This document shows positions 5,751 to 20,395 of a DNA stretch of 37,758 nt, one piece after another. Origin of the DNA: an uncultured Brachyspira sp. (GTDB lineage: Bacteria > Spirochaetota > Brachyspiria > Brachyspirales > Brachyspiraceae); contig NZ_CALXRM010000029.1 in the NCBI RefSeq assembly GCF_944390845.1, positions 1-37,758 on the forward strand, read 5' to 3'. Each line of letters begins with the position of its first letter. Positions within the stretch are counted from its first letter, which is position 1. Under the pieces are notes generated by a model. The model was not told the DNA's origin and did no database searches. It worked only from the letters and a program-made list of their open reading frames with translations. The translations under genes and the position numbers were made by a program.

Positions 5751-5779
5751 TAAAACAATAAAATGAAGGAGTAAAATAT

Positions 5780-6376
5780 ATGTTTGAATTAATGAAACTA
5801 CCTTATGGTAAAGAAGACTTAGCTCCATATATGTCTTCAAATACATTAGATTTCCATCATGGAAAACACTTAAATACTTATGTTACAACTCTTAACGACT
5901 TAGTATCTAAAGATGCTTCTTTACAAGGAAAAAGCATTGAAGAATTAATCACTTTATCACATAACAATGCTGATAAACAAGCAGTGTTTAATAATGCTGG
6001 TCAAGTTTATAACCATGAAGAATTCTTCAAAATGCTTAAAAAAGATGTTGCTATACCTGCTGAAGTAAAATCAAAAATCGAAGCTGATTTCGGTTCTTTC
6101 GATGCTTTCAAAGAAGCTTTCACTACTGGCGGTAAAACTCAATTCGGTTCTGGCTGGGTTTGGCTTGTAATTAATAACGGTAAATTAGAAGTTAGAAAAT
6201 ATGCTAACGCTATGAACCCTGTTGCTGACAAAGTACATGGTGTTTTAACTTGTGACGTTTGGGAACATGCTTACTACTTAGATTATCAAAACAGAAGACC
6301 TGATTTCTTAACTACTTTTGTTGATCATTTAGTAAACTGGGACTATGTTGCTGAAAGAATTAAACTTGCTAAATAA
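5780..6376 (+). CDS. sodB: Iron-type superoxide dismutase
   Basis: Converts superoxide to hydrogen peroxide and oxygen in the cytoplasm. The 198-residue length is normal. Metal ligands are visible at H26 (DFHHGKH), H79 (YNHEEFF), D159 and H163 (CDVWEHAYYLDY). Iron preference is suggested by Gln75 in NNAGQVYNH, where Mn enzymes usually carry Gly, and by the LTCDVWEHAYY motif; cambialistic use cannot be excluded. AAGGAG lies 9 nt before the ATG. Rubrerythrin follows 44 nt downstream, forming an oxygen-defence pair that fits an aerotolerant anaerobe. Its leader is complementary over 9 consecutive bases to the candidate small RNA at 9709-9717. Confidence 0.95.
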   Translation: MFELMKLPYGKEDLAPYMSSNTLDFHHGKHLNTYVTTLNDLVSKDASLQGKSIEELITLSHNNADKQAVFNNAGQVYNHEEFFKMLKKDVAIPAEVKSKIEADFGSFDAFKEAFTTGGKTQFGSGWVWLVINNGKLEVRKYANAMNPVADKVHGVLTCDVWEHAYYLDYQNRRPDFLTTFVDHLVNWDYVAERIKLAK

Positions 6377-6407: not shown

Positions 6408-6420
6408 TAGGAGAATTAAA

Positions 6421-6957
6421 ATGAAGGATTTAAAAGGTACAAAAACAGAAAAAAACTTAAATGAAGCTTTTGCTGGCGAATCTATGGCTAGAAACAAATA
6501 CACTTATTTCGCTAGTGTAGCAAGAAATGAAGGTTATGAGCAAATTGCTGCTATATTCCTTGAAACAGCTGAAAATGAAAGAGAACATGCTAAAATACAC
6601 TTCAAATATCTTAATGGTATAGGTGATACACTTCAAAACTTACAAGCTGCTTGGGAAGGTGAAAACGAAGAATACGAAAATATGTACCCAAGAATGGCTA
6701 AAGAAGCTACTGAAGAAGGTTTTGAAGAAATCGCTCGTTCTATGAAATTAATTGGTGATGTTGAAAAAGAACACAGAGAAAGATATGCTAAATTAAGAGA
6801 AGCTGTTAAAAACGGAAGCGTTTTCAAAAAAGCTACTAAAGTTCAATGGAAATGTAGAAACTGCGGTTTCATCGTTGAAAGTGAAGAAGCTCCTGAACTT
6901 TGCCCAGTTTGTAAACATGCTAAAAAATTCTTTGAAGTACGTGTTGAAAACTTCTAA
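6421..6957 (+). CDS. rbr: Rubrerythrin
   Basis: A diiron peroxidase that reduces hydrogen peroxide to water in anaerobes, taking electrons through its rubredoxin domain. The 178 residues show the four-helix ferritin-like domain (about 1-135) with diiron motifs E20, E53-x-x-H56 (EREH), E95-x-x-E98 and E115-x-x-H118 (EKEH). A C-terminal rubredoxin-like iron centre follows with C145, C148, C161 and C164 (CRNC and CPVC). AGGAG precedes the ATG. Located directly after FeSOD, it would remove the peroxide made by the dismutase. Codon use points to strong expression. A strong terminator follows. Confidence 0.95.
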   Translation: MKDLKGTKTEKNLNEAFAGESMARNKYTYFASVARNEGYEQIAAIFLETAENEREHAKIHFKYLNGIGDTLQNLQAAWEGENEEYENMYPRMAKEATEEGFEEIARSMKLIGDVEKEHRERYAKLREAVKNGSVFKKATKVQWKCRNCGFIVESEEAPELCPVCKHAKKFFEVRVENF

Positions 6958-6990: not shown

Positions 6991-7014
6991 GGGGGAAATA
7001 TTTCCCCCTTTTTT
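6991..7014 (+). terminator. Terminator after rubrerythrin
   Basis: GGGGGAAATATTTCCCCC is a perfect 18-nt palindrome followed by T6. It could also stop transcription of the convergent gene ending at 7029, although the T-run on the minus side is poor. Confidence 0.85.
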
Positions 7015-7028
7015 ATTATTTTATGTTT

Positions 7029-8108
7029 TTATTTTTTTAAGACAAATGATGAAAATACGTCAAATATTATAGGGTCTATCTTAACATCTTTATCTAAATA
7101 ATTCTCTTTCATCACTTCTAAAGCCTTATTATAATCTAATATCTCTTTATTTGAATACGCTATATTGTCAAATAGATTAACTATTTCAAGTACCTTAGAA
7201 GGAAAATATGATATGCTGCTCAATTTTAAAGCATCATTATAATCAAAACTAATAACATAATTAGGACTTAAAAATGGTTTTCTGTTTATAACGCTATTAT
7301 AGTAATTTAAAAATATTCCATGTCCATGTCCGTAATATTCATTATGTAATCCAACTATTAATGATACTTCATCATTATATTTTATAAAATGCTTCAAATA
7401 TGAATAGCATTTCATATTACTGCATTCGTTTAAAGCTTTTAAATTAACTATATCATACCAAAAAGCAGCTATAGAAATATTAACTATCTCATTAAATAAA
7501 ATCTCTCTTAAACCATGTTTATACACATGCTCTAGTTGAGATATATTCTTTTTTATATGAAATTTTTTAAATATATTCTTATAATATTTTAAATACTTGT
7601 CCTTAAAGTTATTTCTAACATCAAGAACCAAGTTATTATTTATACTATCATTATAATACTTGATAAAGTTTATAATATTGAAAAATACCCTATTAGAATG
7701 CGATATACTGTCATTATTTTTTAATGCCTCAATATTATCAAAATCGATATTCTCATTCTTTATATTTATTAAAAGTCTTACTATAATTTTTAAAGAATAA
7801 TCTATAAGCTGTTTTGAATATTTTAATTGCTTTATAAATGATAAATCCTTCTCCTTTATGCTTTCCATACATTTTATCAAATCAATTCTAGCAATCAAAG
7901 AAAGCTTCATCAATATACCAACAATATTATTTATATCATCTTCAGATATACTCTCATATTGTTTTTTTTCAATAATTTTTACTTCTTCCATTATTGACAA
8001 TAAAATATCATTCAATTTACTATTTATAAACTCTCCAAAAATAATATTGTCTTCTTCTACATACTTTCTGTACATACTAAATACATCATCTTTCATCATA
8101 ACTGTCAT
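7029..8108 (-). CDS. Degenerate HD-GYP-like protein (probably non-catalytic)
   Basis: 359 residues, clearly paralogous over its last two thirds to the HD-GYP-like protein at 12733-14172: shared HSNRVF (H137 here), AAFWxDI, LHxEYYGxGxGIF and SYFPxKVLEI blocks in the same order. HD-GYP domains hydrolyse cyclic di-GMP using metal-bound His/Asp residues. Here the HD pair reads YD (218-219), the HHE motif reads HNE (255-257), GYP reads GHG, the mid-domain His is Tyr235 and the late Asp is Asn311. With most metal ligands gone, catalysis is unlikely; a ligand-sensing or partner-binding role is inferred. No membrane segment. The start is set by a strong AAGGAGG 7 nt upstream. Confidence 0.7.
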   Translation of the reverse strand: MTVMMKDDVFSMYRKYVEEDNIIFGEFINSKLNDILLSIMEEVKIIEKKQYESISEDDINNIVGILMKLSLIARIDLIKCMESIKEKDLSFIKQLKYSKQLIDYSLKIIVRLLINIKNENIDFDNIEALKNNDSISHSNRVFFNIINFIKYYNDSINNNLVLDVRNNFKDKYLKYYKNIFKKFHIKKNISQLEHVYKHGLREILFNEIVNISIAAFWYDIVNLKALNECSNMKCYSYLKHFIKYNDEVSLIVGLHNEYYGHGHGIFLNYYNSVINRKPFLSPNYVISFDYNDALKLSSISYFPSKVLEIVNLFDNIAYSNKEILDYNKALEVMKENYLDKDVKIDPIIFDVFSSFVLKK

Positions 8109-8310
8109 AATCCAACCTCCTTAAAGAAAAATAGTAAATTTCCTTTACATTTATAATATAATATAATATATTATAGGAATTTTGTAAATATAATTTACTA
8201 ACAAATTAATGTTTTATAAATATTTTTTACAATATTTATAATTAATACAATACATTTCCTACATAAATAGATAGTATAACAAAAAATTATAATTAAAATA
8301 TAAAAAATAA

Positions 8311-8339
8311 TTGCAATTAAAGTACTTTTACTATAGAAT
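8311..8339 (+). promoter_or_regulatory. Probable sigma-70 promoter of guaB
   Basis: TTGCAA at 8311-8316, a 17-bp spacer and TAGAAT at 8334-8339. The implied start near 8346 gives a leader of about 50 nt. No purine-riboswitch-like structure is seen in this leader. Confidence 0.6.
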
Positions 8340-8395
8340 AGTTTATCAAAATATCTATATATCAAATCATATCTAATAAAAAAGAGGAAAAATTT

Positions 8396-9517
8396 ATGTC
8401 TATACAAATGAGAGAAGCATTAACCTTTGATGATGTACTATTAGTTCCACAAGAATCAGATATTCTTCCAAAAGACGTTTCTTTAAGAAGGAAATTAACA
8501 AATAAAATAACATTAAATACCCCATTAATAAGCTCTCCTATGGATACTGTAACAGAATCACAAATGGCTATAGCGATGGCATTATGCGGAGGATTAGGTG
8601 TTATACACAAAAACATGTCATTAGAACAGCAGGCAAAAGAAGTAGAAATAGTTAAAAGTTTCAAAGACATAGAAAATAAAGAAAAAGCAAGCTTAACAAG
8701 TAATGGTACTTTGATAGCTGCTGCTGCAATAGGTATATCTGAAGATAGATATGAGAGAATAGAAAAGCTTATACAAGCTGGAGTTGATTTAATAGTAATA
8801 GATACGGCACATGGTCATTCTAAAAATGTACTTACTGCTATAAAAGAAATAAAAGATAAATACAAAGAAGTTGAAGTAATAGCTGGAAATATAGCTACTG
8901 CTGACGGTGCTAAAGCATTGATTGATGCCGGTGTTGATGCCATAAAAATAGGTATAGGTGCCGGTTCTATATGTACTACAAGAATAATAGCTGGCGTAGG
9001 AGTTCCTCAGCTTACTGCTATAGCTGATGCCTCAGAAGTTGCTAAAAAGAACAATATTGGTTCTATTGCTGACGGAGGAATTAAATATTCCGGCGATATA
9101 GTAAAAGCATTTGCTATAGGTGCTGATGCTGTTATGGCTGGAGGACTTTTCTCATCTACTTATGAAGCTCCTGGTGATGTTATTATAATAGACGGAAAAA
9201 AATATAAACCTTATAGAGGAATGGGTTCTGTTGGTGCTATGATACATGGAAGCAAAGACAGATATTTCCAAAGTGAAGTTGTAAATAAATCTAAATTTGT
9301 TCCTGAAGGTATTGAAGGAGTTACAGAATATAAAGGTCATGTTTCTGATGTTGTATATCAAATTGTAGGCGGTATACGTTCAGGAATGGGCTATATTGGT
9401 GCTAAAGATATAGATACTCTACAGAAAAAAGCTCAATTTATTAGAATAACTAATCAAGGTTTGGCCGAAAGTCATGTTCATGATGTAAAAATTACTTCAA
9501 AAGCACCTAACTATTAA
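8396..9517 (+). CDS. guaB: IMP dehydrogenase lacking the CBS (Bateman) domains
   Basis: Oxidises IMP to XMP with NAD+, the committed step of GMP synthesis. The catalytic loop [11 protein letters not shown] with Cys193, the YRGMGS segment (273-278), PEGIEG (303-308), [12 protein letters not shown] (325-336) and AESHVHDV (357-364) are all present. The protein has 373 residues against about 485-490 for typical enzymes. The missing part is the CBS pair normally inserted after the [10 protein letters not shown] region; only a short linker (about 88-105) joins the two halves of the barrel. CBS-less IMPDHs are known in Borrelia burgdorferi and Cryptosporidium. Loss should remove adenine/guanine-nucleotide regulation. 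GAGG precedes the ATG. Confidence 0.95.
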
Positions 9518-9548
9518 TTAAGAATAATATAAAATAACAATAAATAAA

Positions 9549-9587
9549 AATCAATAATATTATTTTTTAGTATTATTGATTTTTTTA
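9549..9587 (+). terminator. Terminator after guaB
   Basis: ATCAATAATA pairs with TATTATTGAT around a T-rich loop and is followed by T7. It insulates the promoter that begins at 9599. Confidence 0.8.
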
Positions 9588-9598
9588 TGCTTTTTGTA

Positions 9599-9634
9599 TT
9601 GACAAAAATACTTAATATGTTAGAATATACTAAC
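9599..9634 (+). promoter_or_regulatory. Promoter with operator palindrome driving a short transcript
   Basis: TTGACA at 9599-9604, a 16-bp spacer and an extended -10 TGTTAGAAT (TAGAAT at 9621-9626). The -10 lies inside GTTAGAATATACTAAC (9619-9634), and a third half-site GTTAG follows at 9639-9643. The same arrangement, with a perfect palindrome, stands before the DUF3793-flavodoxin operon at 19321-19357. Overlap with the -10 box implies repression. The regulator is not identified; Fur, PerR or DtxR-type proteins are candidates because of the flavodoxin link. Confidence 0.7.
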
Positions 9635-9760
9635 AAATGTTAGAGAACATATACAAACTATTTAGTCAACAACTTTGTATCCCTAAATTGATACAATATA
9701 TTTTATAACCTTCATTTAATTAAACTGTGCCCTATCTGCTCAAGATAGGGCTATTTTTTT
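9634..9760 (+). ncRNA. Candidate regulated small RNA (about 125 nt), or leaderless micro-gene
   Basis: A good promoter (9599-9626) and a strong terminator (stem GCCCTATCT / AGATAGGGC at 9729-9751, then a T-run) bracket a 125-nt unit between guaB and the DUF486 gene with no normal gene inside. The RNA can form a hairpin TTGTATC / GATACAA (about 9675-9697) with a loop containing CCCTAAA. Between this hairpin and the terminator is a probably unpaired stretch, AACCTTCATTTAATT (9707-9721), complementary to ribosome-binding sites of GAAGG type. A 23-codon ORF starts at ATG 9637 and stops at 9708, with no ribosome-binding site and only a few nt from the expected RNA start. A leaderless peptide therefore cannot be excluded. 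Promoter and operator are seen; the regulatory role is inferred. Confidence 0.55.
9729..9760 (+). terminator. Terminator of the candidate small RNA
   Basis: A perfect 9-bp stem GCCCTATCT / AGATAGGGC with a five-base loop is followed by TATTTTTTTA. It is GC-rich for this genome and typical of small-RNA 3' ends. Confidence 0.85.
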
Positions 9761-9875
9761 ATTGTTTACAGTAATATTTTTTAAAATAACTATAGAAAAT
9801 AATTTTTTATAACTTACAATAGTTTATCAATAAAAATAATTTTTCGTAAAATACGGAGGAATAAAAAAAATTATT

Positions 9876-10244
9876 ATGAAAGCTATAACAACTATATTAT
9901 TGCTTATTTTGTCCAATACATTCATGACATTTGCTTGGTATGGACATTTAAAATTCAGTGAAATGAAAGGATTTGCTAAATTATCACTTCCTTTTATCAT
10001 TTTAATAAGCTGGGGAATTGCTTTATTTGAATATTGTTTTCAGGTTCCTGCTAATAGAATAGGTTTCCAGGGAAATGGCGGGCCATTTTCTCTTATGCAG
10101 TTAAAAGTTATGCAGGAAGTTATAACTTTGACAGTATTTACTATATTTACTGTTGTATTCTTTAAAACAGAAACTTTAAAAATTAATCATTTTATAGGTT
10201 TCTTATGTCTAATAATGGCTGTATTCTTTATATTCAAAAAATAA
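9876..10244 (+). CDS. DUF486 (DMT-like) small membrane protein
   Basis: 122 residues with four hydrophobic segments (about 3-22, 36-53, 78-98 and 103-120). The signature blocks FMTFAWYGHLKF, ISWGIALFEYCFQVPANRIG and QLKVMQEVITL match my memory of the DUF486 / drug-metabolite-transporter-like family, whose substrate is unknown. Length is normal. The visible GGAGG (9855-9859) stands 16 nt before the ATG with an A8 run between, so either spacing is unusual or a non-standard ATT codon at 9870 or 9873 is used; the family N-terminus supports the ATG. It stands alone with its own terminator. Confidence 0.85.
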   Translation: MKAITTILLLILSNTFMTFAWYGHLKFSEMKGFAKLSLPFIILISWGIALFEYCFQVPANRIGFQGNGGPFSLMQLKVMQEVITLTVFTIFTVVFFKTETLKINHFIGFLCLIMAVFFIFKK

Positions 10245-10256
10245 TAATATAATAAA

Positions 10257-10297
10257 TAAAAATCGGTATGCTTTATATTTAAGTGTACCGATTTTTT
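10257..10297 (+). terminator. Terminator after the DUF486 gene
   Basis: AATCGGTA pairs with TACCGATT around a 17-nt loop and is followed by a T-run. Confidence 0.75.
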
Positions 10298-10308
10298 ATT
10301 ATAAACTT

Positions 10309-10640
10309 TAATTACACTTGCCCACCCTCTACCATTTCAATATTTTTCTCATATTTATATATTATTTTTCTTTTTAAATCTTAACTGTTTTTATAGCTGC
10401 CCACCCAAGAATTTTGTAAATTTGTTGTGTTTTCACCGCACGCTAAATAAAACTAAAAATATATCTTTATTTGTAATTCAAATTTAATTATATTATAAAT
10501 TTAGTTCACCGTGCGTTAAATTCATTTTAAAATTAATTTCAACTTGGGCGGGTGCTTTAATTTATTATTTGGCTATAAATATAGTAAAAATTAGAATTTC
10601 TCAATAAAGCTATAAAAAATAAAGGGCGGGGTATGTAATA
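10309..10640 (-). repeat. Nested inverted-repeat element, copy A (inverted orientation)
   Basis: This fills the gap between the DUF486 gene and the membrane-anchored protein. Arms in order: TTGCCCACCC (about 10318), GCCCACCCAAG (about 10398), CACCGCACGC (about 10434), CACCGTGCG (about 10507), CTTGGGCGGGTGC (about 10543) and AAAGGGCGGGG (10621). The arms pair outer with outer, middle with middle and inner with inner. Read in reverse complement it aligns with copies at 29029, 31211, 35539 and 37401, so this copy is inverted. No coding potential. Confidence 0.85.
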
Positions 10641-10660
10641 AAATTTCATAGAAATAGTAA

Positions 10661-10696
10661 TAAAAAAGCTCCAGCATATTTCTATACCAGAGCTTT
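10661..10696 (-). terminator. Terminator of the membrane-anchored protein gene
   Basis: On the minus strand AAAGCTC pairs with GAGCTTT around an 18-nt loop and is followed by a T-run. Confidence 0.7.
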
Positions 10697-10720
10697 AATA
10701 TATTAATTGGAAATTAAATA

Positions 10721-11590
10721 CTATTGTAAAGTAACCACATAATTCCATTTAGGAAGCGGATATCTGCCAGCTTTACCAATTGATTTGCCGTTAGCATCAG
10801 TAATTTCTGCTTCAGCATATAATAAATATCTGCCTTTTGGAAGATAACGGTTTCCTGATGACATTCTTCCAGCAAAATAGAATTGTGTTTGAGCTTGTCC
10901 GTCTAATACATATATTTTAGGCAAATAGAATACTAAATCTCTGCTTAAAATATTATAATTATTATCTATTTTTCTAGCATATACTCTTATTTTAGCATAT
11001 CTAGCTTCCTGAGGAGCTTTAACAGCTAAAGTTATTAAAAGAGGATTTCCTCTTGTAGCCACAAATCTATCATTATAATTGATTATAAATGAACTTATTC
11101 TTACAGGCTGATTAGTATCATTTGATGTTGTATCAGCGATATTGTTGTTAGGTCTAAGAGTATTAGAGGTAGTTACTAATACTGTATTGTCAGTATTATA
11201 TGTATAAGCAGAACTTCCGCCTGTACTATTTGGTTTTGTAGAAGGTTTTACATCAGGTATATTACTATTATTAACCTCATATAATCCGCTATCAGATAAA
11301 TTGATAGAAGAATCCTTATTAGTTTGCGTATTAGTATTATTATCAACTGTTATTGTATTGTTAGTAGCCAAAAAGTCTTTATCTTCTGGGCTTATATTAT
11401 CACCAAATATATCATCTGTAGTGATAGTATCTTCAGGCATATCATTAGTTTCATTTCCGCCCAAATCTAATAAAGGTATATTTTTACTTCCTAATAAACT
11501 TTTAGCAATAAAAAATCCTGCCACAACTACAACAAGAACTATTACTATAATAATAATTGGTTTTAATTTAGCTTTCATTTCGTTAGACAT
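10721..11590 (-). CDS. Membrane-anchored extracytoplasmic protein of unknown function
   Basis: 289 residues. A short cytoplasmic start (MSNEMKAKLK) leads into one strong transmembrane segment (about 11-32), then a long Asn/Thr/Ser/Asp-rich linker (about 33-165) and a compact beta-rich C-terminal domain (about 167-289; motifs VATRGNPLLITLAVKAP and LPKGRYLLYAEAEITDANG). The C-terminal domain resembles an Ig-like or FlgD-type beta sandwich by feel only. Topology N-in, C-out is expected. GGTGGAA precedes the ATG. It lies 101 nt downstream of the sigma-factor gene on the same strand and may share its transcript. No recognised family. Confidence 0.75.
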   Translation of the reverse strand: MSNEMKAKLKPIIIIVIVLVVVVAGFFIAKSLLGSKNIPLLDLGGNETNDMPEDTITTDDIFGDNISPEDKDFLATNNTITVDNNTNTQTNKDSSINLSDSGLYEVNNSNIPDVKPSTKPNSTGGSSAYTYNTDNTVLVTTSNTLRPNNNIADTTSNDTNQPVRISSFIINYNDRFVATRGNPLLITLAVKAPQEARYAKIRVYARKIDNNYNILSRDLVFYLPKIYVLDGQAQTQFYFAGRMSSGNRYLPKGRYLLYAEAEITDANGKSIGKAGRYPLPKWNYVVTLQ

Positions 11591-11691
11591 AAAGTTCCAC
11601 CCATGATTTTTTAGTATATATTAGTTTTTCGGATAAAATAGAAATTATTTAATAAAAAAACAAAATAATTTGTACGATTTGATAAATAAAA

Positions 11692-12621
11692 TTAATCCCA
11701 CAAGAAACTTTTTAGTTCTTTAGATAAATTAAGACCTGCAAGCTTTTTTATAGCTTTGATTTGAATTTGTCTTACTCTTTCTCTGGTAATATTTAATTCC
11801 TTGCCTGTATCTTCTAAAGTTTTGGCTTCTTTTCCATATAAACCATATCTTGAAATAATAACAGTTCTTTCTTTCTCATCTAAACATTTTAATGCTTCTG
11901 TTAAAGTATCTCTTAAACTATCCATAAATGCTTTTTGATGAGGAGATGGGAAATTTCTATCTTCTATAACTGAAGTCATATCATTATTATCTGAATTTTT
12001 GAAAAATGAATCAACACTAGCTGTATCTTGAGTAAATATCATTATATATGATAGAGTTTTTCTATCCACTTTCATTTCTTTAGCTATTTCATCTATAGTA
12101 GGTTCTCTGCCCAATTGCTGTGTTAAAGTTTTTGAAGTTTGTATACTTTTTTTAATTAATCTAGCTATATGCATAGGGAAACGTATAATATGTCTTTTGC
12201 TTGATATTTCTTTAACTATACTCTGTTTTATCCACCAAACACCATAAGTAGAAAATTTAAAACCCTTTTTATATTCAAATCTTTTTACAGCTTCTATAAG
12301 TCCAATATTTCCCTCATCTATAATATCAATAAAAGGTACTCCGCTATTATAGTATCTTTTTGCAATACTTATTACTAATCTTAAATTAGACTTTACAAGT
12401 TTATGCTGTATAGAATCTATTTCTTTTTCTAAATCTTCTAATTCTTTTTTAGATTCTTCATCATCTTTTTCTAAAAGTAAAGCCTTTTTATCCCGGCAAA
12501 CCTCAAGACGCTGCCATAATTCAAGTTCTTCTTCTTTAGTGAGTCTTCTTATTTCACCTATTTGCTTTAAATATACGCTAACAGGACCCTTATACTCTTG
12601 ATTAATATCTTTTTTTAACAA
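11692..12621 (-). CDS. Alternative sigma-70-family factor (RpoD/RpoS-like, group 2)
   Basis: 309 residues. Visible regions: 1.2 (PVSVYLKQIGEIRRLTKEEE, 13-32), 2 (NLRLVISIAKRYYNSG at 79-94, DIIDEGNIGLIEAVKRFEYKKGFKFSTY at 99-126, WWIKQSI), 3 (HIARLIKKSI onward) and 4 (DEKERTVIISRYGL at 248-261, helix-turn-helix TLEDTGKELNITRERVRQIQIKAI). The acidic region 1.1 is absent and the length is that of group 2 factors (RpoS, RpoH-size), not the primary RpoD. It should direct RNA polymerase to -10/-35 promoters under particular conditions; which genes cannot be said. The start is TTG at 12621 preceded by AGGGAAAG, a weak combination that may limit synthesis. Confidence 0.9.
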   Translation of the reverse strand: MLKKDINQEYKGPVSVYLKQIGEIRRLTKEEELELWQRLEVCRDKKALLLEKDDEESKKELEDLEKEIDSIQHKLVKSNLRLVISIAKRYYNSGVPFIDIIDEGNIGLIEAVKRFEYKKGFKFSTYGVWWIKQSIVKEISSKRHIIRFPMHIARLIKKSIQTSKTLTQQLGREPTIDEIAKEMKVDRKTLSYIMIFTQDTASVDSFFKNSDNNDMTSVIEDRNFPSPHQKAFMDSLRDTLTEALKCLDEKERTVIISRYGLYGKEAKTLEDTGKELNITRERVRQIQIKAIKKLAGLNLSKELKSFLWD

Positions 12622-12676
12622 TTACTTTCCCTAAAATACAAACATTTTATAAATTAAAAAGCAGAAACCCTATATA

Positions 12677-12704
12677 AGGATATAAGATTTTTGCAAATTG
12701 TCAA
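12677..12704 (-). promoter_or_regulatory. Possible promoter of the sigma-factor gene
   Basis: On the minus strand TTGACA (12699-12704), a 16-bp spacer and a weak TATCCT (12677-12682). The -35 is perfect and the -10 is poor. Confidence 0.4.
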
Positions 12705-12732
12705 GGTATTTTAAATAATTAATTTCAAATAA

Positions 12733-14172
12733 TTATAAAGGACAATCAAATATAGATGCATTCCTAACTTTTTCCAAATACCTCACAAATAAATGGAAAA
12801 GTATAGGATCTAATTTTATAGTTTCCTCCAAGAAATTTTCATACATATATGAAATAACATCATTTATTACATTACCTTCAGTCTTATTTTTTATAGAATT
12901 AGTGTATAAAATATCATAAGAATCTATAATTTCTAAAACTTTAGCTGGAAAATATGATAATGCCAACATATTATTAATATCATTAGGATCATAAGTTAAT
13001 ATATTTTCTATAGTATTATACTGTTTATTAGCAAACTGCTTATGATACATATTAATAAATATGCCGTATCCATTTCCATAATATTCATGATGAAGCCCAA
13101 CTGTAGTATATGTATACTCATTTTGTGCCATACAATATTTCAAAAGATTAAAACCTAGTATAGAATGAGTATCGCCTATATTATTTTGAATAATAGGAAT
13201 GTTAGGAAGTTCATCAACCAATGCTATATCATGCCAAAATGCTGCTCTGGCATAATATTTTATTTCATTTTGACCTATCTTTCTAAATCCAACTTTAGAT
13301 ATATCTTCTATCCTATCTGCTTTTGTAAATAAATTATATTTCTCCCCTATTTTATTATAGTAAGAATGATATTTTTTCTTATATTCTACTCTTAATTTAG
13401 AAGCTACACCTCTTGATATCTCTTCATTATAGAAATATAAAAATTCAACCATCATAATAAATACCCTGTTACTATGAGCTATTATATTATGATCATTAAA
13501 AGCAGAAAGATTATTAAATATACCAAAACCATCATATTCTTTTTCTAATAGGTTAACTATAGTACCTATTATATCTGCAAATATTAAATCATCTTTCTTA
13601 ACATTTTGATAATCTTTTAAATTGGATATACTATTTTGTTTAATATAATTTAAATGATATATAAGATTTAATCTCTCTATAATACCAACATCTGTTAAAA
13701 TAGTACCTATTAATTTAGCTAATTCAACATCTAATTTACTTTGAGTAACAAAAAGTTTTAATCTATTAAATATATTCCTCAAATACTCTATTCTATCAAC
13801 ATTCCTTATAGATATAAGTTCATTGAAATGCTGCTCATAATATTCTTTATCATTTTCAAATTGACAATTTTTATAAACATTATAGAAAAGATTAATATCA
13901 TGAATATCAGCATGCTGTTTATTTATATCTATACTGCTTTGAGTTCCAAGTATGGTACTGAAAGATTTATGTATATAAATGGAACATTTAGAAATATATT
14001 CACTATTTTCCAAAGAATTGAATACTTCTTCAACTTTATCAAAAGGAACAAAACTAAATACACCGCTTTCATTAATAAGTATAACATCTAATTGTCTTTC
14101 TATGATATTATTGATGTACATTTTTATATATGAAGGACTTACTGTCATATATTTTTTTAAATCTACTATCAT
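12733..14172 (-). CDS. HD-GYP-like phosphodiesterase (HHExxxGxGYG variant)
   Basis: 479 residues. The C-terminal two fifths carry an HD-GYP-type layout: H233 (AHSNRVF), H314-D315 (AAFWHDIAL), H336 (DTHSILGFNLL), H361-H362-E363 and GNGYG (366-370), and D417 in YFPAKVLEIIDSYDIL. In this family such residues bind a metal centre that hydrolyses cyclic di-GMP; here GYP is replaced by GYG. The N-terminal about 200 residues are unrecognised and could be a sensory or dimerisation part. Unlike its paralogue at 7029-8108, all metal ligands appear kept, so it may be active. No membrane segment or classical receiver domain. The start at 14172 lacks a clear ribosome-binding site. The sigma gene follows 111 nt downstream. 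Confidence 0.75.
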   Translation of the reverse strand: MIVDLKKYMTVSPSYIKMYINNIIERQLDVILINESGVFSFVPFDKVEEVFNSLENSEYISKCSIYIHKSFSTILGTQSSIDINKQHADIHDINLFYNVYKNCQFENDKEYYEQHFNELISIRNVDRIEYLRNIFNRLKLFVTQSKLDVELAKLIGTILTDVGIIERLNLIYHLNYIKQNSISNLKDYQNVKKDDLIFADIIGTIVNLLEKEYDGFGIFNNLSAFNDHNIIAHSNRVFIMMVEFLYFYNEEISRGVASKLRVEYKKKYHSYYNKIGEKYNLFTKADRIEDISKVGFRKIGQNEIKYYARAAFWHDIALVDELPNIPIIQNNIGDTHSILGFNLLKYCMAQNEYTYTTVGLHHEYYGNGYGIFINMYHKQFANKQYNTIENILTYDPNDINNMLALSYFPAKVLEIIDSYDILYTNSIKNKTEGNVINDVISYMYENFLEETIKLDPILFHLFVRYLEKVRNASIFDCPL

Positions 14173-19268: not shown

Positions 19269-19297
19269 TATAAATTTAATAAAAAACAATAAAAAAA

Positions 19298-19357
19298 GTT
19301 AGAATATACTAACAAAAGTATTGACATTCTAAAAAATATATGTTAGAATATTCTAAC
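19298..19357 (+). promoter_or_regulatory. Promoter with two operator palindromes, DUF3793-flavodoxin operon
   Basis: TTGACA at 19321-19326, 17-bp spacer, extended -10 TGTTAGAAT (TAGAAT 19344-19349). One palindrome, GTTAGAATATACTAAC (19298-19313), lies upstream of the -35; a second, perfect one, GTTAGAATATTCTAAC (19342-19357), covers the -10. Their centres are 44 bp apart, about four helical turns, which would suit cooperative or looped repressor binding. The first sequence is identical to the operator at 9619-9634. Confidence 0.8.
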
Positions 19358-19358
19358 A

Positions 19359-19952
19359 ATGAGTAAGTATACATTTGATGAGTTAATTATTAATCACTGT
19401 GCACCTGCCCTTTCAGGTATAAAGATAGCTAATATATTTACTTATCAGTATGACTCTAAAAAAGAGCTTGAGAAAGAAATTTCTTCATACAATGATATTC
19501 TTAGCTTTAAAAACATAAAGGTATCTATAATAAAAGATAATGCCAATAAGGCTATAATTTATGTTTATAATGAAAAAGAGTTAGAGAATTATTTATTAGA
19601 TGATGAGATTTTTGAGTTTTTAGAGAATTACGGATATAAATCTAAGAATATACATGAAAGCATAGATTTCTTAAAAATAAGAATGCAATATGCTGAAAGT
19701 TTCCCTCATGAAATAGGTATATTTTTAGGATATCCTCTTATTGATATAAACGGCTTTATAAATAATTATGGAAAAAATAGTTTATATACTGGATATTGGA
19801 AAGTATACCATAATAAAAATGAAGCTATTAAAATTTTTGATAATTACAATAAATGCAGAGATTTTTATATTAGCACATTTTTGAACGGCAAAGGCATTTT
19901 GGAAATAATGGACAATTATCAAAAGTATGTTTTAAGAAAAAATATTATATAA
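19359..19952 (+). CDS. DUF3793 family protein, apparently translated from a leaderless mRNA
   Basis: 197 residues. The opening (FDELIINHCAPALSGIKIANIF) and later blocks (ESFPHEIGIFLGYPLIDINGFI, GYWKVYHN) fit DUF3793 proteins of anaerobes, which I recall lying next to flavodoxin or iron-uptake genes; the biochemical role is unknown. The ATG is 10 nt after the -10 box, so the RNA start should fall at or next to the start codon and no ribosome-binding site exists upstream. The N-terminus agrees with the family, so the start is probably right. Flavodoxin follows 11 nt downstream. The operator at the -10 box points to repression, probably relieved by iron or redox stress (inference). Confidence 0.8.
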   Translation: MSKYTFDELIINHCAPALSGIKIANIFTYQYDSKKELEKEISSYNDILSFKNIKVSIIKDNANKAIIYVYNEKELENYLLDDEIFEFLENYGYKSKNIHESIDFLKIRMQYAESFPHEIGIFLGYPLIDINGFINNYGKNSLYTGYWKVYHNKNEAIKIFDNYNKCRDFYISTFLNGKGILEIMDNYQKYVLRKNII

Positions 19953-19963
19953 GGAGTTTATAT

Positions 19964-20395
19964 ATGAATGATAAAATAGCAATAATATATTGGAGCGGTA
20001 CTGGAAATACAGAAACTATGGCTCAAAATGTAAAAAAAGGAATAGAAAACTCTGGAGGAAATGCTGATATTTTTAATGTATCCAGCTTCGATATAGGAAA
20101 TATAAATAATTATTCAAAATTAGCTTTAGGATGTCCGGCTATGGGAGCTGAAGTTTTGGAAGAATCTGAATTTCAGCCTTTTTATGACTCTATAAGAGAT
20201 AGTTTATCAGGCAAAAAAGTTGCTTTATTTGGTTCTTATGATTGGGGCGATGGTGAATGGATGAGAAACTGGCAAGATGATGTAAGCAGCGTAGGAGGTT
20301 CTTTAGTAAAAGATGGTTTAACAGCAAATTTATCTCCTGATGATGATGCTATAAATCAATGTGTAAGTTTAGGTGAAGCATTAATGAAAGCATAA
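19964..20395 (+). CDS. Short-chain flavodoxin
   Basis: An FMN-binding electron carrier that can replace ferredoxin when iron is scarce. 143 residues, short-chain type. The phosphate-binding loop WSGTGNTETMA (about 10-20) is clear. LGCPAMGAEVLEESEFQPFYD and LFGSYDWGDGEWMRNW carry the isoalloxazine-side loops, with Trp in the second. AAGGAG stands 7 nt before the ATG. It is the second gene of the operator-controlled operon and is followed by a strong terminator. Confidence 0.92.
   Translation: MNDKIAIIYWSGTGNTETMAQNVKKGIENSGGNADIFNVSSFDIGNINNYSKLALGCPAMGAEVLEESEFQPFYDSIRDSLSGKKVALFGSYDWGDGEWMRNWQDDVSSVGGSLVKDGLTANLSPDDDAINQCVSLGEALMKA

Follow-up and report, generated by a model that had tools for sequence, protein, structure and literature searches.

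What is made from the short interval between guaB (8396–9517) and the next gene on the same strand, a member of the DMT superfamily (9876–10244, by PF04342), in a Brachyspira genome of 3.4 Mb? The window, which is the whole stretch of 37,758 nucleotides that was analysed, holds at 9599–9760 a near-consensus promoter and a strong terminator enclosing about 125 nt without an ordinary gene. A first-pass annotation had read this as a trans-acting small RNA under an operator, regulated jointly with flavodoxin and probably responsive to metal, or as a leaderless gene for a 23-residue peptide. The first of these proposals is now strongly supported, with regulation by iron itself remaining an inference. 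We consider it probable that the locus encodes a small RNA that acts in trans in an iron-sparing response and is carried in two copies by at least half of the Brachyspira genomes: its operator is common to an iron importer and its core is complementary to the starts of iron-protein genes, so that the RNA probably saves iron when iron is scarce. At the level of sequence, we show the promoter, the operator, the terminator, a paralogue, genus-wide conservation, an invariant core and conserved complementarity. Our statements on expression, on the sensing of iron, on which protein is the repressor and on target repression are inferences, made without expression or iron-response data.

A putative RNA gene with its own promoter and terminator

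The following elements were delimited, all on the forward strand.

9599..9626, +, promoter: -35 TTGACA (9599–9604) and extended -10 TGTTAGAAT (9618–9626)
9618..9635, +, operator palindrome TGTTAGAATATACTAACA (TGTTAG-N6-CTAACA), overlapping the -10 and the probable start site
9632..9760, +, predicted small RNA of about 125–129 nt, starting at about 9632–9634 (5' end inferred from the -10)
9675..9696, +, middle hairpin UUGUAUC-CCUAAAUU-GAUACAA, from the fold
9701..9724, +, invariant core UUUUAUAACCUUCAUUUAAUUAAA, predicted to be single-stranded and to be the target-pairing region (fold and alignment)
9729..9760, +, intrinsic terminator: hairpin 9729–9751 (9 pairs), then a T tract

The -35 hexamer is separated by a 16-nt spacer from the -10 hexamer TAGAAT (9621–9626), which has a TG upstream, and with 11 matches out of 12 this promoter came top of the 60 promoter-like sites scanned in 7000–13000. 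A scan of the same interval for terminators returned two, against 1.3 expected, and the hairpin at 9729–9751 is one of them. With its own promoter and terminator, and no conserved ORF in the 125 nt or so between them, the locus qualifies as an independent gene, as in the class of iron-sparing small RNAs.

Compared with shuffled sequences, the fold of the RNA has a z-score of -3.2, and it contains the single internal hairpin that had been foreseen, at 9675–9696; the window copy also presents a weak 5' hairpin at 9637–9650. The stretch before the terminator had been described as single-stranded and C/U-rich. It is indeed predicted to be unpaired, but its composition is A/U-rich with an ACCUUC island. 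No tRNA or tmRNA identity was found in the region, and none of 4227 Rfam families, including RyhB and PrrF, matched at the gathering score (best sub-threshold E-values above 1). Judged by its sequence, the RNA is a new family.

Distribution and conservation in Brachyspira

A DNA search of the same genome identified a paralogue (copy B, C21:29416–29559) that is 80% identical to the window copy (copy A). Promoter, operator and core are as in copy A, and the terminal hairpin differs. Copy A neighbours sod, rubrerythrin and guaB; copy B lies between a prephenate-dehydrogenase-like gene and an RNase R-like gene. Long matches to the RNA were obtained by DNA search in most of 26 Brachyspira genomes, and an RNA model built from 32 copies matched 24 of the 26, the exceptions being G003 (88% complete) and G019 (2.0 Mb). 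The model matched none of five genomes from other genera of the same family and order, and when genomes of 84,980 species were scanned, the exact core turned up in Brachyspira only. Two further loci may be mentioned here. In G003, which lacks the core, an operator drives a short stretch ATGTTAGAATATACTAACA (L048, about 1500–1600), with a hairpin and a T-rich tail within about 90 nt, possibly a diverged or replacement RNA. In G007, a decayed copy B (L067, 452–530) has kept much of the core and hairpin and lost promoter and operator.

The 24-nt core is invariant in the 32 aligned copies, for a mean column identity of 64%; one further copy (L061) differs from it at three positions. The hairpins behave in another way. 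Among 38 copies, the terminal hairpin persists with 25 different 5' stem arms, and the middle hairpin, found at the equivalent place in nearly all copies, is built from 12 different stems. A fixed core, together with hairpins that persist as their letters change, is what a small RNA with a constant pairing region shows. Poor conservation across the genus would have spoken against the first-pass proposal; instead, TTGACA and the -10 are present in nearly all copies, and the hairpins are kept. Because the sequences of the terminal hairpins cannot be aligned, MAFFT followed by RNAalifold yielded hardly any consensus structure, and hairpins were therefore located copy by copy; the covariance model R1, with three base pairs, behaves essentially as a sequence model. 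In most species the terminal hairpin of copy B is followed by an A-rich flank without a U tract, as seen at the copy-B loci L002 (1464–1596, minus strand) and L049–L059, and no terminator-like site was found downstream of these loci up to the RNase R-like gene.

An operator common to iron-related genes

The palindrome that contains the -10 had been reported to recur at the flavodoxin operon, and the window does contain two such repeats.

19297..19314, +, operator copy 1 of the DUF3793–flavodoxin operon, one mismatch to TGTTAGAATATACTAACA
19341..19358, +, operator copy 2, immediately before the DUF3793 start codon, no mismatch to TGTTAGAATATACTAACA
19359..20395, +, co-regulated operon: DUF3793 protein (19359–19952, PF12672) and flavodoxin (19964–20395, PF00258)

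Beyond these two sites and the one at 9618, the window has no operator match with fewer than three mismatches. The DUF3793 gene begins right after its operator (CTAACAATG, window 19341–19359), and its mRNA should therefore be leaderless or nearly so.

The whole genome contains seven exact TGTTAG-N6-CTAACA sites, and 23 sites with at most one mismatch compared with four for a reversed control pattern. Exact operators precede a FeoA–FeoB fusion (PF04023, PF02421), the DUF3793–flavodoxin operon, both RNA copies and three other genes, namely two methyltransferases and a 222-aa protein without a family whose gene is divergent from a glyA-like gene. The sites of these three genes lie at 1501–1518 of L008, L014 and L010. 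At feoAB and at flavodoxin, the operator overlaps a TTGACA promoter in the same manner as at the RNA. Feo and flavodoxin are classic low-iron genes; since they share the operator, iron is most likely the signal, and regulation of the RNA by iron is inferred from this regulon. The genome encodes one Fur-family and one DtxR-family protein as candidate repressors.

Predicted targets in the window genome

The search for targets covered, besides the window, stretches of the genome totalling about 1.2 Mb (about a third), where a simple ORF rule gave 1096 start regions that were scored for pairing with the core. By longest helix, rnfC ranked first (16 bp), ferritin second (15 bp), an FMN dehydrogenase with an N-terminal cysteine-rich motif (possible Fe-S) fifth (12 bp) and a PduS-like Fe-S protein related to RnfC eighth (11 bp). 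Ranks of about 29–33 went to serine dehydratase beta, superoxide dismutase and rubrerythrin. By duplex energy, rnfC was second, the FMN dehydrogenase fifth and sod sixth, each equalled by none or one of 100 shuffled cores. Three of the predicted sites lie in the window.

5761..5769, +, predicted target site AAAUGAAGG in the RBS of superoxide dismutase (Fe/Mn; gene 5780–6376; PF00081/PF02777)
6419..6427, +, predicted target site AAAUGAAGG spanning the rubrerythrin start codon (gene 6421–6957); a weaker candidate, lost in the group L284–L288
31015..31024, -, predicted target site UAAAUGGAGG in the RBS of the serine dehydratase beta chain; a weak candidate

The superoxide dismutase carries FNNAGQ, the iron-type residue pattern, and is treated here as an Fe-type enzyme. 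At another place in the genome (L020, 229–1488), two ferritin genes stand in tandem, the first with a one-mismatch operator and the second with the 15-bp core match in its leader, which could place the pair under two levels of control.

Pairing with many start regions is to be expected of any anti-Shine-Dalgarno sequence. Overall, strong duplexes exceed the level of shuffled cores only modestly (14 versus 7 ± 4.5, equalled by 10 of 100 shuffles), and single target predictions should therefore not be over-read; several high-ranking start regions (metI-like, fliG, enoyl reductase) have no iron link. Four of 16 proteins with Fe-S Cys motifs fell in the top 43 of the 1096 (p 0.003), a number reached by none of 100 shuffled cores, but this test is only supportive because the choice of motifs was settled once the list had already been looked at. 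By Pfam, iron proteins make up about seven of the top 40 by helix (some of the 40 were not scanned) versus two of 30 random genes, which is not significant alone. Outside the RNA genes, the 14-mer complement of the core was not clearly commoner in the 26 genomes than a reversed control, and targets were therefore sought as duplexes at start regions. Four candidates were dropped or kept as weak: an anaerobic sulfatase maturase (L114), truncated where its contig ends; an hsp20-like 5' region (L062–L066); serA, present in two genomes only; and a MetI-like permease, without an iron link. Taken as a prediction only, the RNA has the conserved single-stranded region complementary to iron-protein mRNA starts that is typical of iron-sparing small RNAs.

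Conservation of the predicted pairing

We next turned to orthologues across the genus, for which the mean duplex energy with the real core was compared with that of 400 shuffled cores. The signal was strong for the FMN dehydrogenase (z -5.1, 0/400 shuffles), sod (z -4.1, 3/400) and rnfC (z -3.6, 0/400), weaker for the PduS-like protein (z -1.8) and the neighbouring DMT gene (z -1.6), and absent for guaB, used as a negative control (z 0.0). The three highest scores are inflated, because these targets had been chosen for their high score in the first genome. Pairing is retained in most of their orthologues. For rnfC, UUAAAUGAAGG or UUGAGUGAAGG occurs in many genomes, with A-to-G changes between clades that leave G-U pairs, and pairing is gone in L179, L180, L185 and L187. 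The FMN dehydrogenase keeps AGTTTAATTA, which complements the 3' part of the core, in many genomes at a varying distance from the Shine-Dalgarno sequence and start; its pairing is weak in G001 and G003. For sod, AAUGAAGGAG is kept in most genomes. The use of different core parts by different targets would explain why the entire core is frozen.

Alternative explanations

An ORF for the 23-residue peptide does exist (9637..9708, +), and its ATG stands right behind the operator, as in the leaderless DUF3793 gene. This peptide gene, which the first-pass annotation had offered as an alternative, was rejected: many copies lack the ATG, others would encode peptides of 3, 4, 7, 15, 18, 19 or 23 residues in differing frames, and the invariant core lies at or past the end of any such frame without a conserved reading frame, which leaves the idea hardly credible. 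It is only slightly less improbable that the element is a 5' leader or attenuator of the DMT-family gene at 9876, or a DNA-binding site instead of an RNA. The position between guaB and a same-strand gene would suit a leader, but a terminator stands between the RNA and 9876, the paralogue sits in an unrelated gene neighbourhood, and the copies have nothing in common beyond promoter, operator, core and hairpins.

A less remote, still unlikely, alternative keeps an identical trans-acting RNA and changes its signal to oxygen or peroxide, sensed by a PerR-like or CRP/FNR-type regulator, with repression of SOD and Rnf as a redox response. With its even N6 spacing, the palindrome does not correspond to a classical Fur box, the genome does have a Fur-family protein, and one-mismatch operators precede an AhpC-type peroxiredoxin, a hemerythrin, ferritin and a heavy-metal ATPase. 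However, chance alone would give about four one-mismatch sites, the exact sites whose iron link is clear (feoAB, flavodoxin) indicate low iron, and lowering Fe-SOD and rubrerythrin would be odd for an oxidative-stress RNA. The trans-acting character itself is backed by the genus-wide conservation, the paralogue, the invariant single-stranded core, the operator at feoAB and the complementarity to iron-protein starts, and we retain an iron-sparing small RNA as the preferred reading.

A model for iron sparing and its relation to known systems

In the proposed mechanism, when iron is plentiful, a metal-sensing repressor (a DtxR- or Fur-family candidate) bound to TGTTAG-N6-CTAACA would cover the -10 and silence the RNA along with feoAB and flavodoxin. 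Iron scarcity would release the repressor and let the RNA be made up to its terminator hairpin. Messages for proteins that use or store iron would then be bound at their RBS or start region by the single-stranded core of the RNA: ACCUUC would pair with the Shine-Dalgarno region, UAAUUAAACUG with positions a little upstream of it, and UAUAUUUUAUAACC within the leader of ferritin. Ribosomes would thereby be kept from translating these mRNAs, among them those for Rnf, Fe-SOD and ferritin. Meanwhile Feo and flavodoxin would be induced, and flavodoxin would substitute for ferredoxin-type carriers. The Hfq profile PF17209 found nothing in the genome at E<=1, which does not exclude an unusual Hfq-like protein; pairing may therefore be unaided or rely on another chaperone. 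With somewhat less assurance than for the RNA's role as such, we favour a dedicated, Hfq-less system of post-transcriptional iron sparing, in which the RNAs are duplicated, the 24-nt core is frozen since its parts pair with different iron-protein mRNAs (Rnf complex, Fe-SOD, ferritin, cysteine-rich FMN dehydrogenase), and the repressor is possibly of the DtxR type. It would be the first in a spirochaete as far as the literature was searched.

RyhB of enterobacteria is likewise an RNA under an iron repressor that represses mRNAs of iron-using proteins, which for Brachyspira is inferred. Its targets include sodB and ferritin, matched here by the predicted Fe-SOD and ferritin sites. Unlike RyhB, the Brachyspira RNA has another operator, no Rfam match, no Hfq model match in its genome and a range known in Brachyspira only. 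The two paralogous iron-sparing RNAs per genome recall PrrF1 and PrrF2 of Pseudomonas, but the Brachyspira copies occupy separate loci, share only promoter, operator, middle hairpin and the 24-nt core, and show no Rfam relation. FsrA of Bacillus subtilis pairs with the Shine-Dalgarno sequence via a C-containing motif and uses the chaperones FbpA, FbpB and FbpC (PMC9410917). Such pairing is predicted for Brachyspira too, with the difference that the core is A/U-rich with one ACCUUC. IsrR of Staphylococcus is restricted to its genus, has a conserved single-stranded target region and a poorly conserved terminator sequence, is independent of Hfq and belongs to a low-GC host (PMC9410917), traits that the Brachyspira RNA shares, its target region and its independence of Hfq being predicted. 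In contrast, IsrR has three C-rich regions and is controlled by Fur, whereas the Brachyspira RNA has one invariant core and an unidentified repressor; fold and alignment gave no conserved set of three C-rich regions. MrsI of Mycobacterium tuberculosis, predicted to spare iron under the DtxR-type regulator IdeR in an organism without Hfq (PMC9410917), resembles the Brachyspira RNA in these respects (the DtxR-type regulator being a candidate here) and differs in phylum and targets, the sequence relation having been compared through Rfam only. RyhB, PrrF, FsrA and MrsI are reported to be non-orthologous to IsrR even though targets are shared (PMC9410917). The best reading is that the Brachyspira RNA, its function being inferred, works like RyhB, FsrA and IsrR while being unrelated to them in sequence.

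A literature search found no description of Brachyspira small RNAs. If the function holds, this would be an iron-sparing small RNA in a phylum where we found none described, and the conserved operator defines a small iron regulon with two candidate regulators. The RNA would add to iron control in these host-associated gut anaerobes the post-transcriptional half that has been missing, and suggest how iron is spared without Hfq. It would also mean that the RyhB strategy has arisen independently once more, again with superoxide dismutase, ferritin and Fe-S electron carriers as the point of convergence.
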